Source of the DNA: a virus
Reading direction: 5' to 3' (one strand)
DNA: 27,075 nucleotides
IMG/VR virus record: IMGVR_UViG_3300042516_004714
Coordinates: 1 to 27,075 of that record
Shown: positions 21,477-26,975 of the stretch, piece by piece
How positions within the stretch are numbered: the stretch's first letter is position 1
Layout: every line of letters starts with the position of its first letter
The notes under the pieces: model-generated
Told to the model about the DNA's origin: nothing
Seen by the model: the letters and a program-made list of their open reading frames with translations, nothing else
Database searches by the model: none
Translations under genes and position numbers: made by a program

Positions 21477-22139
21477 ATGGCAATTTTAAATCCTACAACA
21501 ATAACTGTAGATGCAATATTAACCACGAAAGGCCGTGAATTATTGGCTCGCAATGACGGCTCATTTCAAATCACTCAATTTGCTTTAGCTGATGATGAAA
21601 TTGATTATACCTTATATAATCCAAATCACCCATCAGGATCAGCATATTATGGTGAAGCAATTGAAAATACTCCTGTATTAGAAGCTATTCCAAACGAATC
21701 ACAAGTAATGCGTTACAAATTAGTAACTTTACCTCGTGGCACTTCTAAATTACCAGTAATTAACTTAGGATATAATAGTATTACTTTACGCCAAGGTGCT
21801 TCATTAACTATTACTCCACAAACACTTAACTATTTAGGTGCTACAAGTACATTTGAAGCAAACGGTTACACAGCTACAATTGCCGATTCTCGTTTAGTAT
21901 CTACATTTACAGGTACAGGTATTACAACAACTGAACCAACAGGTAACCTTAACACAACTACAGGTACTGTATTGTCTGTAACTCAAGTTGGTACTTCATT
22001 TACAATTACAGGTACTACAATTAATACATTATTTGGTTCTACACTAACACAATTAACTACAACATTTACTGTAATTGGTAGAGATAGTGGTGCTAGAATC
22101 ACTATTCCTTTGAATATTCAAAAAGTATCAACAATCTAA
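21477..22139 (+). CDS. virion structural protein of the ILTTKGRELLA family
   Basis: The 220-residue protein opens with VDAILTTKGRELLARNDGSF, then QITQFALADDEIDYTLYNPN. This N-terminal block recurs in structural proteins of many uncultured aquatic phages, in my recollection, and I treat it as a family signature with no known function. The second half is Thr-rich and strand-rich (TSTFEANGYTATIADSRLVS, GTGITTTEPTGNLNTTTG), like a small surface domain. It has its own late-class box and starts the group of surface-type proteins. The N-terminus may attach to the baseplate while the C-terminus is exposed. Confidence 0.75.
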   Translation: MAILNPTTITVDAILTTKGRELLARNDGSFQITQFALADDEIDYTLYNPNHPSGSAYYGEAIENTPVLEAIPNESQVMRYKLVTLPRGTSKLPVINLGYNSITLRQGASLTITPQTLNYLGATSTFEANGYTATIADSRLVSTFTGTGITTTEPTGNLNTTTGTVLSVTQVGTSFTITGTTINTLFGSTLTQLTTTFTVIGRDSGARITIPLNIQKVSTI

Positions 22140-22147
22140 TTTAACAT

Positions 22148-23161
22148 ATGTCATTCGTAAGATACAACCCAGAAGACTCAGTAATTAGTTCAGAAACCGT
22201 AATACGTGGTTTTTGGAGTGGAGATGTAAATGCAAATTCAAGTAATTTTGTTAGCCAAAGCACAACATCTGAATATTATTTAGATGTCTATAATGGTATC
22301 CCTTCCTTATCAAGTTCTGCTGTTCAATTCAGTATTCAATTTGGTAATCTATTTGGATCTGGATCTGCATTGATTAATGCAAATGTTCCTACAGGAGGAT
22401 ATACTCCATCACGTGTTGTATATGGAGAATATAGAAATTTAGTTTACGGGACTGAAACAGTAAACTTTAGTTTTGATAACAGTGCTACTACTGCAAGCCA
22501 AATATTTGTACTTAACTTTGCTCGTAACCGCTATAAAGAATCTTTACAACCAGGTTCTTTTAATTTAGCTTTAAAAAGCGGAAGCAGTATTATCTACTTA
22601 ACAGACGATAGTGGTACTACAAATTTAACTCGCTTTATTGGTGAAAATGAAGTATATTATGTAATTAGTGGTAGTAATGGTACTGGATATAATGCCGCTG
22701 CCTCTGCTTCTTACTATGGAATGATGTTCCCTGACCTTAATGTTATTGTATTAAATGCAACTTCAGGTTCAGCAACTTCTTTACTACCTTATATTACTGG
22801 TTCTGCAAATATGAATCAGAGTACTTCATCAGCAAGTTTTAATACATTAGGATTATATAACTCAATTGTAAGTGGATCTGTAACAAGTAGCTTTACTTTA
22901 CAATCATCTGAAACTGTTTCTTCACGTTATTTCTTTACAAGAGTAAAGAATAGTGAATTTAACTATACAACAAACCCATCTATTATAGATGCAAATGGTA
23001 ACTTGCTATATACTACATTGATTGATAATCCTCAAACATTCCCTACTGCTGTAGGTATGTATAATGATAACAATGAATTGTTAGCTATAGCTAAATTAAG
23101 TCAACCATTGACAAAAGATTTTACTAAAGAAGCCTTGATTAGAATCAAATTAGACTATTAA
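22148..23161 (+). CDS. tail surface protein, 337 aa, paralogue of its downstream neighbours
   Basis: MSFVRYNPEDSVISSETVIR begins the protein. The middle (IFVLNFARNRYKESLQPGSF, then NLALKSGSS) shares the pattern xxNxxxxGxxLPGxFxL with the 542-residue neighbour (NQGVFGNKILPGNFQI), so the two have a common domain. The last about 75 residues (RVKNSEFNYTTNPSIIDANG, then AVGMYNDNNELLAIAKLSQP) match the small protein at 26664 (KSSDYNLSYNPTLVSG, QIGLYSDSDELLAVAKLGKP). The protein is therefore a central domain plus a mobile C-terminal domain. Likely an adhesin or its adaptor. Confidence 0.75.
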   Translation: MSFVRYNPEDSVISSETVIRGFWSGDVNANSSNFVSQSTTSEYYLDVYNGIPSLSSSAVQFSIQFGNLFGSGSALINANVPTGGYTPSRVVYGEYRNLVYGTETVNFSFDNSATTASQIFVLNFARNRYKESLQPGSFNLALKSGSSIIYLTDDSGTTNLTRFIGENEVYYVISGSNGTGYNAAASASYYGMMFPDLNVIVLNATSGSATSLLPYITGSANMNQSTSSASFNTLGLYNSIVSGSVTSSFTLQSSETVSSRYFFTRVKNSEFNYTTNPSIIDANGNLLYTTLIDNPQTFPTAVGMYNDNNELLAIAKLSQPLTKDFTKEALIRIKLDY

Positions 23162-23164
23162 TGC

Positions 23165-24793
23165 ATGTCTTCATTCAAACAGTTAAGCAGATCAGACGTT
23201 ACAGTTGTAGCAAACCAAGCTAACAAACAATGGACTTTACCTTATTGTCCATACCCTACTTCATCTGACTATTTAACTATATATAAAGGCACAAACGTTA
23301 CAGGTGCTTTTTCTGCAGATAATGATCCTGTTACTGAAGGTGAGTATGAACGCTTAGTTTATGCTCAAATAAACCAGATGTTCTATCAGGTTTATACTGC
23401 TTCATTGAATACCAGTTCATTAATGTTTACCTTAAACAATTATGAATCTGCTTCTCAACAACGCCCTACATCTTCTTATTTTATCTATAATGATAATGAT
23501 AGACTAGTTCAAACTTTCCCTACTGGTGCTAATGAAGGGATTAGAGTTGTAGCCACCAACCAAGGAGTATTTGGTAATAAAATACTACCAGGAAATTTTC
23601 AAATATCTTCCTCAGCGTACAATATTAAAGATGACAGCTATGGAAACTTATATGACTATTCCGGAAGTAAAACACACGTTGGAAACATATATTATGCTCA
23701 AGGATTAGCAATAGTTACTAATCAAGATTATCAATTAATGTTTCCTCTACCTCCACTAGCTAAAAATGATAGTGGAAATTTTTTAACTACAGACACACCA
23801 AAAACAATTTCAACATTTCTTAACGATGATGGAAGAAGTGGAACCTTACTTACAGGCTCAATTGTGTTATCAGGTAGTGCTTCTGATTTGATTTATTGGT
23901 CAACAGGAAGTAACGGTACTGTTATTTTAACTACTACTGTAGCTGGTACTTATACTATTTATTATACTATAGGAGCTCAAGTTACTGGTTCTTGTCCTAC
24001 TACTTTAAGAAGTAATAAAGCAAAAATTATTGCTACTGTAGCGGAACCAACTACAACTACCACTACAACAACTACTACAACAACTACTAGTACGACTACC
24101 ACCACTACAACAGTACCAACAACTACTAGTACGACTACCACCACTACAACAGTACCAACAACTACTACAACAACTACTAGTACGACAACAACTACAACAA
24201 CCTGTGCTCCACAAAATGCACAAAGTATGTATTATGATTATGATACAGGATTACCTAGAATGTTTGGAACTAGTTCTGCTGATGCTGCATGTAATTTATT
24301 AGTTAGTGCTTCTACTGTATATTATACTTCATCATTAGCACTTACTAATGGTACGCCTTTATATTATGATGAATGCCTTACTATACCTATAACAGCTAGT
24401 GCTTATACAACTTCTTCTCAACAATATTTTAAAATTGGTCCGTATTATGTAAATTTTGAAACTAATGGATATGTTGTAAGGGATGTAACAGTTTGTACTT
24501 CTCCCACTACAACAACTACTACTAGTACGACTACAACTACTACAACAGCAGATCCATATTATTACTATTCAGTTAGTAAATTTGATTGTGGATCATCATG
24601 TGCTTATGTATCACCAGATTTAGTGGCTAGATCAAGTACTCCTTTATCAACAATTGATGGTGTTTACTATAAACCTTTAGGTTCATTTACTTATCAAATC
24701 CAAAATGAAATTACACCGGCACCTATGTCATTTGATATTAGTTTAGATGGTGCTCCATCAAATGCTAATTGTATATCTGCTTGTAGTCTTTAA
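23165..24793 (+). CDS. modular adhesin with poly-threonine linkers, 542 aa
   Basis: Domains in order: N-terminal fold shared with the 22148 protein (residues about 1-195; EGEYERLVYAQINQMFYQVY, NQGVFGNKILPGNFQISSSA); an Ig/cadherin-like domain about 196-290 (PLAKNDSGNFLTTDTPKTIS, NGTVILTTTVAGTYTIYYTI); a Thr-rich linker 296-346 with scattered S, V and P; a globular domain about 347-447 bounded by Cys (CAPQN, then VTVC); a second Thr linker 448-461; and a C-terminal domain of about 80 residues with four Cys (DCGSSCAY, NCISACSL). Thr-rich linkers are typical sites of O-glycosylation in surface proteins. Two glycosyltransferase-like genes follow. No chaperone is seen. Confidence 0.8.
   Translation: MSSFKQLSRSDVTVVANQANKQWTLPYCPYPTSSDYLTIYKGTNVTGAFSADNDPVTEGEYERLVYAQINQMFYQVYTASLNTSSLMFTLNNYESASQQRPTSSYFIYNDNDRLVQTFPTGANEGIRVVATNQGVFGNKILPGNFQISSSAYNIKDDSYGNLYDYSGSKTHVGNIYYAQGLAIVTNQDYQLMFPLPPLAKNDSGNFLTTDTPKTISTFLNDDGRSGTLLTGSIVLSGSASDLIYWSTGSNGTVILTTTVAGTYTIYYTIGAQVTGSCPTTLRSNKAKIIATVAEPTTTTTTTTTTTTTSTTTTTTTVPTTTSTTTTTTTVPTTTTTTTSTTTTTTTCAPQNAQSMYYDYDTGLPRMFGTSSADAACNLLVSASTVYYTSSLALTNGTPLYYDECLTIPITASAYTTSSQQYFKIGPYYVNFETNGYVVRDVTVCTSPTTTTTTSTTTTTTTADPYYYYSVSKFDCGSSCAYVSPDLVARSSTPLSTIDGVYYKPLGSFTYQIQNEITPAPMSFDISLDGAPSNANCISACSL
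24050..24202 (+). repeat. threonine-codon minisatellite with a 39-base unit
   Basis: The stretch is built almost only from ACN codons. The unit from ACTACTAG to the next one is 39 bases (starts 24083 and 24122; 13 residues with the pattern Thr-Ser-Thr and Val-Pro). A degenerate third copy follows. A second, shorter Thr-codon run lies at 24506-24547. Confidence 0.85.
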
Positions 24794-24835
24794 TGAATAA
24801 TTTGGAATTATAAATTCAATTACTTATATTAGGTT

Positions 24836-25792
24836 ATGAAAAATCTACGCTATATTTGTGTACAACCTCGCCTACTTTACTATGCTTGGCAGGTTGAAGT
24901 AATGATTAATAATTTCATAAAACATGGAATTAACCCAAACAACATTGATATTCTTGTCGCTTGGAATCCTAATGACCTAACCACATCAGTACAAGCTAAT
25001 GTTGATGCTTGGGATAAACTAGCGGCATATTATAGTTCGGTTCGTTTTTTCTTTTATCAAGATACTAGACAACAACCCATATATTATATTTCGTCTGTAC
25101 GCCCCAATATATTAAAACAACACTTTAAAGCGCATCCTGAACTGGAATCTGAGGCGATCTTCTATCATGATTGTGATATTGTATTTACCCAAACACCTAA
25201 TTGGAATCAATTTTTAAATGACAATATTTGGTATTTAAGTAATACAAATTCATACATTAACTATGATTATATTAAATCTAAAGGAATTGATGTGTACTAT
25301 CAAATGTGTAGTATTGTTGGAATGGAACTTATAGTTCCCCAACTAATGAATTCTAATTCAGGTGGTGCACAATATATAATGAAAAATATTAATCATTCCT
25401 ATTGGAATAAAGTTGAAAAAGATAGTGAACAATTATTCTACCAAATTACTCAGCTTAATAATCAGAAAAAAATAGCTGACCCAACATACCATGAACTTCA
25501 GATTTGGTGTGCTGATATGTGGGCTGTTCTTTGGAATGGATGGATGTTAGGAAACGAAACTAAAGTAGTACCTGAAATGAATTTTAGTTGGGCTACTGAT
25601 CCAAAACACAGATGGGAAGAAACAACTATATTTCACAATGCTGGTGTAACAGGAACAGGAAAACATTTTTACAAAGGGATATATCAACAACAACTACCAT
25701 ATAATATTGAGGATACATTTGATGAACAATTTTGTTCTAAATTATATTTTAATGAAATTAAAGAAACTGCTACTAAATCATGTCTGATTTAA
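24836..25792 (+). CDS. glycosyltransferase-like protein with a DxD motif
   Basis: The 318-residue protein (MKNLRYICVQPRLLYYAWQV) has an alpha/beta pattern of a GT-A type nucleotide-sugar enzyme: an N-terminal VEVMINNFIKHGINP helix, IDILVAWNP strand, and EAIFYHDCDIVFTQTPNW at residues 106-123. The HDCD includes a D-x-D (112-114), where GT-A enzymes bind the metal and sugar nucleotide. A later conserved-looking stretch (ADMWAVLWNGWMLGNETKVV, TTIFHNAGVTGTGKHFYKG) would bear the acceptor side. The family is not named; the call rests on fold pattern. Direct neighbour of the Thr-rich adhesin gene and overlapped by a second such gene, so modification of that adhesin is a plausible role. Confidence 0.65.
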   Translation: MKNLRYICVQPRLLYYAWQVEVMINNFIKHGINPNNIDILVAWNPNDLTTSVQANVDAWDKLAAYYSSVRFFFYQDTRQQPIYYISSVRPNILKQHFKAHPELESEAIFYHDCDIVFTQTPNWNQFLNDNIWYLSNTNSYINYDYIKSKGIDVYYQMCSIVGMELIVPQLMNSNSGGAQYIMKNINHSYWNKVEKDSEQLFYQITQLNNQKKIADPTYHELQIWCADMWAVLWNGWMLGNETKVVPEMNFSWATDPKHRWEETTIFHNAGVTGTGKHFYKGIYQQQLPYNIEDTFDEQFCSKLYFNEIKETATKSCLI

Positions 25793-26652
25793 AAATATTA
25801 AAAGCTACTTACGGTGGGGTTGATTGTACTTCTCAAATACAATCCAAAGTAAACGGAAATAAACTTATAATTCGTTCTGGTAACGATATTATAGGAGATA
25901 CCCAACCAGGAACTGTAAAATATTTAGAAATACAAATAGAACACGAAGGTGAAATTTCCGATCATAAAACTAAAGAACATAATTTATTTGTATTCCCTAA
26001 ATCAAAAACTAATAAACTAGGAATATTTTATTCAAACAACAATACCCCCTCTATATACCCAGCAATTCAAGCTTCTTTAAAATCAATTCAAAAAGCTGCT
26101 GAAGGTAAAGCAGATGTTTTAACTTGTATGTGGCAACATGAACCACAAAATCCATTTCCTGAATTTATTGCTTGGACTCATACTTCTAGTCACTTAAATC
26201 AGTTATTGCAAGTGATGCAGTTGCTTTATCAAGCAAGAGAAATACATAATTACAAATATGTTTCATTTTTAGAACACGATGTATTATACCCAGAAGGTTA
26301 TTTTGATTTTCCTGATTTTGAAGAAGGATGTGTAATAACTAATATGAATTATATGGGTATTAATGTTGATGGGTTTCAACCATTAGGACAGCGTGATGAA
26401 CCATTTCATCAAATGACTATGAGGTTTGATGAAGCTATTAAACATTGTGAATCTATACTTGCAAATGCTTTAATTAGAAATGCTGGATTGATTGAGCCTC
26501 AAAATATTGTTAGGAAACAATGGAATTGTATAAATCCACCTATCCATATCAATCACGGTAAACATTTTACTTCTCATTTTAGTATATATACAAAAAATGT
26601 ATATATAAACCATGACTATTGGGGTGAACACAAAAATGTTTGGCCCTTCTAA
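25780..26652 (+). CDS. two-domain protein: DUF3395-like N-terminus plus glycosyltransferase-like domain
   Basis: The 290-residue protein overlaps its neighbour by 13 bases. Residues 3-57 (LKILKATYGGVDCTSQIQSK, then NGNKLIIRSGNDIIGDTQPG, KYLEIQIEHEGE) resemble the DUF3395 domain found at the end of DnaJC11-type proteins: I-x-x-A-x-Y-G, DxT, L-I-I, GD-x-x-PG, K-x-L-x-I. Residues about 78-280 form a GT-A-like domain (NYKYVSFLEHDVLYPEGYFD; EHD at 165-167 in place of DxD). The DUF3395-like domain may bind glycans or protein; I did not test it. Together with the preceding gene this gives a pair of sugar-transfer enzymes in the tail cassette. Confidence 0.6.
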   Translation: MSDLKILKATYGGVDCTSQIQSKVNGNKLIIRSGNDIIGDTQPGTVKYLEIQIEHEGEISDHKTKEHNLFVFPKSKTNKLGIFYSNNNTPSIYPAIQASLKSIQKAAEGKADVLTCMWQHEPQNPFPEFIAWTHTSSHLNQLLQVMQLLYQAREIHNYKYVSFLEHDVLYPEGYFDFPDFEEGCVITNMNYMGINVDGFQPLGQRDEPFHQMTMRFDEAIKHCESILANALIRNAGLIEPQNIVRKQWNCINPPIHINHGKHFTSHFSIYTKNVYINHDYWGEHKNVWPF

Positions 26653-26659
26653 TATTTAT
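26651..26659 (+). promoter_or_regulatory. AATATTTAT box 4-5 bases before an ATG
   Basis: AATATTTAT overlaps the preceding stop codon. ATATTC then leads to ATG 26664, so only 4 bases lie between the box and the start, as at 12273. Confidence 0.4.
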
Positions 26660-26663
26660 ATTC

Positions 26664-26975
26664 ATGCCAGCAGTAGTACATACCGGATCCTTTGTAATGT
26701 CATTCAAAAACGAACACACCGTTTATGAAAATGAAGTGCGCTGCTTAGTAAAATCAAGTGATTATAATTTATCTTATAATCCTACTCTAGTATCAGGTAG
26801 TTATTTTAGTGGTTCTTTAAAAGGATTCGCTACTAGCGAAAGTTTCTACACTTACGCTACCCAAATCGGTTTATATAGTGACAGCGATGAATTGTTAGCT
26901 GTGGCTAAATTAGGCAAACCAATTATGATGTCTCCCGATACAGATATGACTTTTATTGTAAAATATGATATCTAA
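26664..26975 (+). CDS. stand-alone copy of an adhesin C-terminal domain, 103 aa
   Basis: The start is ATG 26664 (MPAVVHTGSFVMSFKNEHTV), which directly follows the late-class box; the in-frame ATG at 26640 lies inside the preceding gene. The product matches the C-terminal about 75 residues of the 22148 protein in order and spacing (SSDYNLSYNPTLVSG, then YATQIGLYSDSDELLAVAKL, GKPIMMSP). The DNA matches too: a 26-base run at 23073-23098 differs at two positions from 26888-26913. The gene may supply an extra copy of this domain to a fibre tip. It ends by overlapping the GIY-YIG gene. Confidence 0.7.
   Translation: MPAVVHTGSFVMSFKNEHTVYENEVRCLVKSSDYNLSYNPTLVSGSYFSGSLKGFATSESFYTYATQIGLYSDSDELLAVAKLGKPIMMSPDTDMTFIVKYDI

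Follow-up and report, generated by a model that had tools for sequence, protein, structure and literature searches.

A phage protein family, PHROG 4417, as the proposed core of a virion O-glycosylation cassette directed at poly-threonine tracts

The window, a 27 kb virus contig (IMG/VR record IMGVR_UViG_3300042516_004714, positions 1 to 27,075), encodes gp25-like and gp6-like baseplate-wedge genes, an endolysin and a set of genes here named T, A, B and C. Comparison with related viral and bacterial genomes indicates that gene A very probably encodes a glycosyltransferase dedicated to poly-threonine (poly-Thr) tracts in virion proteins of the phage itself. In unrelated phages, the gene was nearly confined to loci whose capsid or tail proteins have runs of Thr, suggesting that the phages concerned sugar-coat their own particles at a Thr tag. 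A preliminary description of the window had proposed that the Thr-rich protein T and two adjacent glycosyltransferase-like genes form an O-glycosylation cassette; this reading is strongly supported by the genomic comparisons and in agreement with the predicted folds, with the co-occurrence with Thr tracts placing A at its core. The open reading frames (ORFs) of T, A and B, the overlap of A and B (13 bases) and the position of these genes in the tail cluster were as first described; they lie downstream of the baseplate-wedge and other tail structural genes. The features of main concern are as follows.

21477 to 23161, plus strand: S3 and S4, conserved structural genes directly upstream of T; S3 is the anchor of the control sample
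23165 to 24793, plus strand: T, modular tail-locus protein of 542 amino acids (aa), N-terminal domain (residues 1–205, approximately) conserved
24050 to 24202, plus strand: Thr tract 1 of T, residues 296–346, 44 of 51 residues Thr, proposed acceptor, without counterpart in 35/35 T homologues lacking A
24506 to 24547, plus strand: Thr tract 2 of T, residues 448–461, 13 of 14 residues Thr, proposed acceptor
24836 to 25792, plus strand: A (318 aa), GT-A fold glycosyltransferase of PHROG 4417 by profile, model and Foldseek, proposed to initiate O-glycosylation on poly-Thr
25166 to 25177, plus strand: HDCD, DxD metal/nucleotide-sugar motif of A, residues 111–114, with D112 and D114 invariant
25634 to 25645, plus strand: HNAG, second invariant motif of A, residues 267–270

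A is a full-length member of PHROG 4417 (E-value 2.1e-59, residues 5–311 on positions 2–291 of the 293 in the profile), a family annotated as ‘unknown function’ and, in several annotations, as ‘prophage pi2 protein 34’; a copy of A from a Bacilli prophage (L264) matched the same family. No Pfam or NCBIfam family was matched by A, its alignment profile found no match in the PDB, and five of its relatives gave only chance-level matches against Pfam. As these sequence searches pointed to no glycosyltransferase family for either A or B, the comparison of predicted folds was needed; both models were confident and their best matches among solved structures were GT-A glycosyltransferases, in agreement with the enzyme type first proposed. 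The AlphaFold2 model of A, based on 34 homologues, had a predicted local distance difference test score (pLDDT) of 96.6 and a predicted template modelling score (pTM) of 0.92. Foldseek returned 140 PDB matches at E ≤ 0.001, of which the top ones listed were GT-A enzymes, with the catalytic domain of UGGT (E 3.7e-8), LARGE1, XXYLT1, glycogenin, collagen galactosyltransferase and a3GalT among the matches. A search of viral models identified two close structural relatives, including Orf49 of Lactobacillus phage LP65 (template modelling score, TM, 0.72), followed in rank mostly by annotated glycosyltransferases, several of them of family 8. The HDCD motif of the preliminary description is present, but lies at residues 111–114 and not 112–114, with D112 and D114 making up the DxD. 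Both aspartates were invariant in 34 diverse homologues (alignment A2) and, together with HNAG, across phages of Bacteroidota and Firmicutes, from Flavobacteriia-type to Enterococcus and Lactobacillus (alignment A4).

As modelled, A thus has the Rossmann-like GT-A fold and a DxD motif, features in common with the GT8, GT24 and GT6 enzymes (LARGE1, XXYLT1, glycogenin, UGGT and a3GalT), several of which act on proteins or protein-bound glycans. It differs from them in sequence (about 10% identity, no Pfam or PDB profile match), and profile comparison did not place it in GT8, GT24 or GT6, nor could it be assigned to a CAZy family here. The enzymes nearest to A, of families 24, 8 and 6, are retaining, and A is probably retaining as well. 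A fold, an activity and a substrate are hereby proposed for PHROG 4417, a family previously without any of them.

The presumed substrate in the window is T, in which the N-terminal domain is followed by small Cys-containing domains joined by Thr linkers. The two linkers noted in the preliminary description are both there, and the densest stretch of 20 residues contains 19 Thr, the runner-up among the window proteins tested having 10. The Thr codons are a mixture of ACT, ACA, ACC and ACG, indicating that the tracts are not a simple DNA microsatellite; an artefact of repeat DNA was ruled out as their source on these grounds. T had been called an adhesin: a modular protein of the tail locus it is, adhesion being a putative role. 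It matches weakly to immuto35A_165 of a Flavobacterium phage, and its N-terminal domain is present in relatives both with and without A.

This domain alone was used to recognise T homologues in a co-occurrence analysis. Eighty loci fetched by S3, which lies two genes upstream of T, with A ignored, were merged with A-selected loci and made non-redundant; a scan by protein returned at most 80 viral loci, and PHROG 4417 loci accordingly number at least 80. With a Thr tract defined as at least 12 Thr in 20 residues, a tract was present in 29 of 35 T homologues with A and in none of 35 without it (Fisher test, 8e-14, uncorrected for kinship). One locus with a tract and no A in view (L229) was left out because its contig stops directly behind T.

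The same linkage was found in Bacilli. Among 84,980 bacterial and archaeal genomes scanned, 39 A loci were identified, mostly from this class, in which the gene directly upstream of A usually encoded a structural protein with a terminal Thr tail; by PHROG, these were major tail proteins, major head proteins or small proteins at head position. The proposed acceptors beside A are unrelated to one another: the head is represented by two major families and by small head-position proteins, the tail by two major families and by T. A further sample of 80 viral loci was fetched with a query for the major tail family TIGR01603 from which the Thr tail had been removed; its seeds had been taken from A-bearing prophages, a choice that alters the number of A loci but not the association inside the sample. 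Among loci with at least 1 kb downstream, the major tail protein ended in a Thr tail in 16/16 with A and in 0/60 without A, and the loci with A encoded a second Thr-tailed protein as well, in most a head protein. On the tail-protein tree, where A was present in 15 of 68 distinct rows, the A label changed at least eight times, and the strongly supported branches yielded four independent pairs, all concordant. The preliminary description had suggested co-occurrence as a check, and the Thr-rich protein and A proved strongly linked in samples anchored on other genes, in prophages and in cultured phages. One tail-protein locus without A (L289) nonetheless encodes a 105-aa protein with ten terminal Thr, perhaps a relic following loss of A.

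The tails also match within a phage. For 34 loci with at least two Thr-tailed proteins, the residues after the last Thr run (endings include SA, GA, QA, SHA and AAV) were identical in 17 of 56 within-phage pairs, whereas 2000 shuffles gave 2.9 such pairs on average and never more than 10. In a cultured example, Lactobacillus phage iLp84, which bears A, the major capsid and major tail proteins share the ending TTTTTTTSK; Enterococcus phage phiFL1A is another cultured phage with A. Thr tails thus behave like a tag that is kept uniform within a phage, which a linker hitchhiking with A would leave unexplained.

Several observations weigh against a dedication of A to Thr tracts. In six A-bearing loci the T homologue lacks a tract: L037, L038, L041 and L191, which are close relatives, have a T of 176 aa without one, L231 has A and a T without a tract, and L163 carries its tract in the gene that follows T. 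The group L049–L076 has A followed by B, with a phosphoesterase-like gene and an endolysin nearby and no Thr-rich neighbour, and searches of the whole records for (ACN)n runs were positive in only a minority of the group. The Foldseek TM scores of A against solved enzymes are only moderate (0.4–0.5). Sign tests on the trees were not significant, owing to the small number of strongly supported branches, and the independent contrasts on supported branches were few (4 and 3), all of them concordant or neutral. In a reverse test, a DNA pattern of seven Thr codons at the end of a gene found 53 viral stretches; A was nearby in only 6 of 40 assessable Thr-tagged ORFs and in only 5 of 20 whole records with C-terminal Thr tails, and A is therefore not the sole partner of such tails.

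Where the end of the tail cluster was covered in the reverse test (L366, L376 and L402), the tagged genes were followed by a different island, the first gene of which encodes a GT-B (family 4/1-like) transferase. Read further, the islands of L366 and L376 contain other transferases and methyltransferases, with a hexapeptide acetyltransferase in L366, and GT2 genes were present in 9 of the 20 whole records. These GT-B islands and GT2 genes point to Thr tails as putative glycosylation tags in general. We give an even chance to the broader proposal that poly-Thr is a portable glycosylation tag of tailed phages, acquired by unrelated capsid, connector and tail proteins, sometimes placed on a minor share of subunits by programmed frameshifting and served by at least two unrelated kinds of island (A-type GT-A and GT-B), the variable tailoring genes of which would bring about serotype-like changes of the sugar coat between close relatives. 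A separate phage lineage (L360, L365, L382, L400, L402 and L410) has Thr tails ending in alanine on three proteins, the major head protein (PHROG 29 in L400) and proteins of about 220 and 210 aa; gene A was not found in this lineage.

Downstream of A, the locus continues with two further genes.

25780 to 26652, plus strand: B (290 aa), rhamnose-binding-lectin-like N-terminal domain (residues 1–75, approximately) and GT-A-like domain, proposed glycan-extending enzyme
26272 to 26280, plus strand: EHD, DxD-equivalent acidic motif of B, residues 165–167, invariant in 34 sequences
26640 to 26975, plus strand: C, C-terminal domain of the ancestral tail protein as a gene of its own beyond the cassette, matching the C-terminal end of immuto35A_165

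The lectin-like domain of B matched the profiles of 5h4s (E 1.6e-9) and CSL3 (E 3.5e-5; alignment A3), and the model of the whole protein (pLDDT 91.5) matched B4GALNT1, CHSY3 and BoGT6a at modest TM (0.3–0.4). With the EHD motif, located where the preliminary description had put it and conserved throughout the diverse homologues aligned, B as modelled has a GT-A-like fold with a conserved acidic motif. The sequences of A and B are not detectably related, and hhalign gave no grounds for homology between them (probability 0.2). The two had been presented as an enzyme pair accompanying the Thr-rich protein; this holds for A, which tracks Thr tracts, but not for the pair, as B is an interchangeable neighbour. 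B was likewise rejected as an obligate partner of A, being one of many cassette genes, and many B loci have no A nearby. Clustering of the cassettes showed that, in relatives of the window, the gene content between A and C varies from phage to phage and includes transferases (GT6, GT2, DXD sugar transferases, Fringe-like and GT61-like), FkbM and other methyltransferases, an NAD-dependent epimerase, a radical SAM protein and B. In one cassette (L034:5245-6249) the lectin-like domain of B apparently stands on a different C-terminal part, and this arrangement suggests that the domain may be a portable module.

By structural genes, the closest cultured relatives of the window are the ‘immuto’ myoviruses of Flavobacterium (Immutovirus); their gene order is identical as far as T, with tail fibre and tail spike genes thereafter. 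C has 37.5% identity over 112 aa to the C-terminal end of immuto35A_165. In 24 of 49 relatives without A the C domain forms the C-terminal end of T itself (a T mostly of about 300 aa), as in immuto35A_165, whereas in 49/49 T proteins beside A it is not fused and C is a separate gene. Relatives without A have another gene set after T, and some relatives carry long fibre-like insertions at the cassette site. Given that C is fused to T without A and separate with it, the Thr tract, A and the tailoring genes appear, from gene arrangement, to sit as a block inside an ancestral tail gene, splitting T from C. S4 (22148–23161) and C have a common C-terminal domain, GLY.D..ELLAVAKL..P, which is also C-terminal in immuto35A_164 and 165 and is thus a repeated module of the tail locus.

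Three other explanations of these data were considered. A and B might modify host surface polysaccharide, resulting in receptor masking or superinfection exclusion, with the Thr tracts as passive linkers. Alteration of host glycans by phage glycosyltransferases is a familiar phenomenon (mentioned in PMC12619734), and some copies of A and B are distant from Thr-rich genes. We nevertheless consider this unlikely, as it explains neither the presence of a Thr tail on the same tail and capsid proteins only with A nor the matched tails within a phage, and the genes are part of the late structural cluster and, in the lineage of the window, stand within a split tail gene. Glycosylation of modified bases in phage DNA by A appears very improbable: enzymes of that kind, serving DNA hypermodification, do exist in phages (cited in PMC12619734), but A adjoins Thr-tailed structural genes in unrelated phages and has no sequence match to any named family, and this reading leaves unexplained why capsid and tail proteins have Thr tails precisely where A occurs. 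No base-modification genes were noticed beside A, although no systematic search for them was made.

The tracts, being of low complexity and variable length, could also be structural linkers spread by repeat slippage, with A hitchhiking in a mobile cassette and inactive on them. Co-transfer of a cassette would yield an association, and A and the tract do form one block in the lineage of the window. In Bacilli, however, the tails are on separate genes (head, adaptor position and tail) up to six genes away from A, making hitchhiking in one block impossible, and other Thr-tailed lineages carry a different transferase island; we regard this explanation as quite unlikely.

If A is dedicated to Thr tracts of virion proteins, it would put the first sugar on Thr residues of the tracts, starting O-glycosylation. 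Folds, motifs, the association with Thr tracts, the variable cassette and the split gene are computational findings; the acceptor, the O-linkage and the order of the enzymes are what we infer. In the window phage, glycosylation by A would turn the Thr linkers of T into mucin-like stalks, and B, acting after A, would extend, modify or cap the sugar. Other glycosyltransferases, methyltransferases or the epimerase would replace B in sister phages, and the type of glycan may therefore differ between close relatives. In Bacilli prophages, the capsid and the tail tube would acquire a coat of sugar. The Thr tract, A and the tailoring genes would move together as a block. The benefit may be shielding from proteases, spacing of tip domains, attachment to the host or escape from surface traps.

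Mycobacteriophages provide a known precedent for glycosylation of virions by phage enzymes. According to PMC12363180 and PMC12619734, which cite Freeman et al. 2023, Che8, Corndog and Myrna glycosylate their capsid and tail-tube subunits with their own glycosyltransferases, reportedly at the C-termini, and this shields the virions from antibodies. In the A-bearing Bacilli prophages, Thr tails are present at the C-termini of capsid and tail proteins. In contrast to the A-bearing phages, the capsid and tail proteins of Che8 have no poly-Thr tail, and its gp108–110, which belong by sequence match to GT2, GT25 and methyltransferase families, are encoded at the end of the genome and thus well away from its structural genes; a relationship of A to the Che8 glycosyltransferases gp109/gp110 was rejected by hhalign profile comparison (probability 0.2). 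SdgA and SdgB, described in PMC3794999 as a dedicated bacterial system glycosylating Ser-Asp repeats, have in common with A the concept of enzymes dedicated to a repetitive Ser/Thr tract on a surface protein; their substrates are bacterial surface proteins and not virions, and the likeness is conceptual. A literature search, weak evidence as subscription papers were mostly outside it, found nothing on poly-Thr virion tails or on virion glycosylation of the PHROG 4417 type. As far as searched, the enzyme family, the Thr tag and the host range are new here. If correct, the proposal provides a substrate hypothesis for a phage protein family without assigned function and carries virion glycosylation beyond mycobacteriophages, to phages of Bacteroidota and Bacilli. 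PHROG 4417 with a neighbouring Thr tail would be a simple signature for finding glycosylated virions in metagenomes, and Thr tails are possible short peptide tags for O-glycosylation in bacteria.

In some phages the Thr tail lies out of frame with the structural gene. The major tail protein of Staphylococcus phages SA2, PG-2021_4 and RQ1 and of Arcanobacterium phage TPWB06 ends at ACT-CCC-TAA, with a long poly-Thr ORF in the +1 frame (L415:5640-5930, L416:5690-5926, and upstream of A in L417 and L418). This arrangement suggests that programmed +1 frameshifting may add a Thr tail to some major tail subunits, and resembles SPP1 gp17.1* and Listeria PSA. PT1-1 and PMBT8 instead encode the Thr tail in frame. 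The major capsid protein of Enterococcus phages Planchet and 9183 terminates at a −1 slippery heptamer, C-CCA-AAA, beyond which a poly-Thr ORF lies in the −1 frame, just before A. A −1 frame poly-Thr ORF is also present in VFW, EfKM29 and vipetofem, without a canonical slippery site; the −1 frame loci are L412:5715-5880, L421 (upstream of 2001), L003:5640-5870, L422 and L423.

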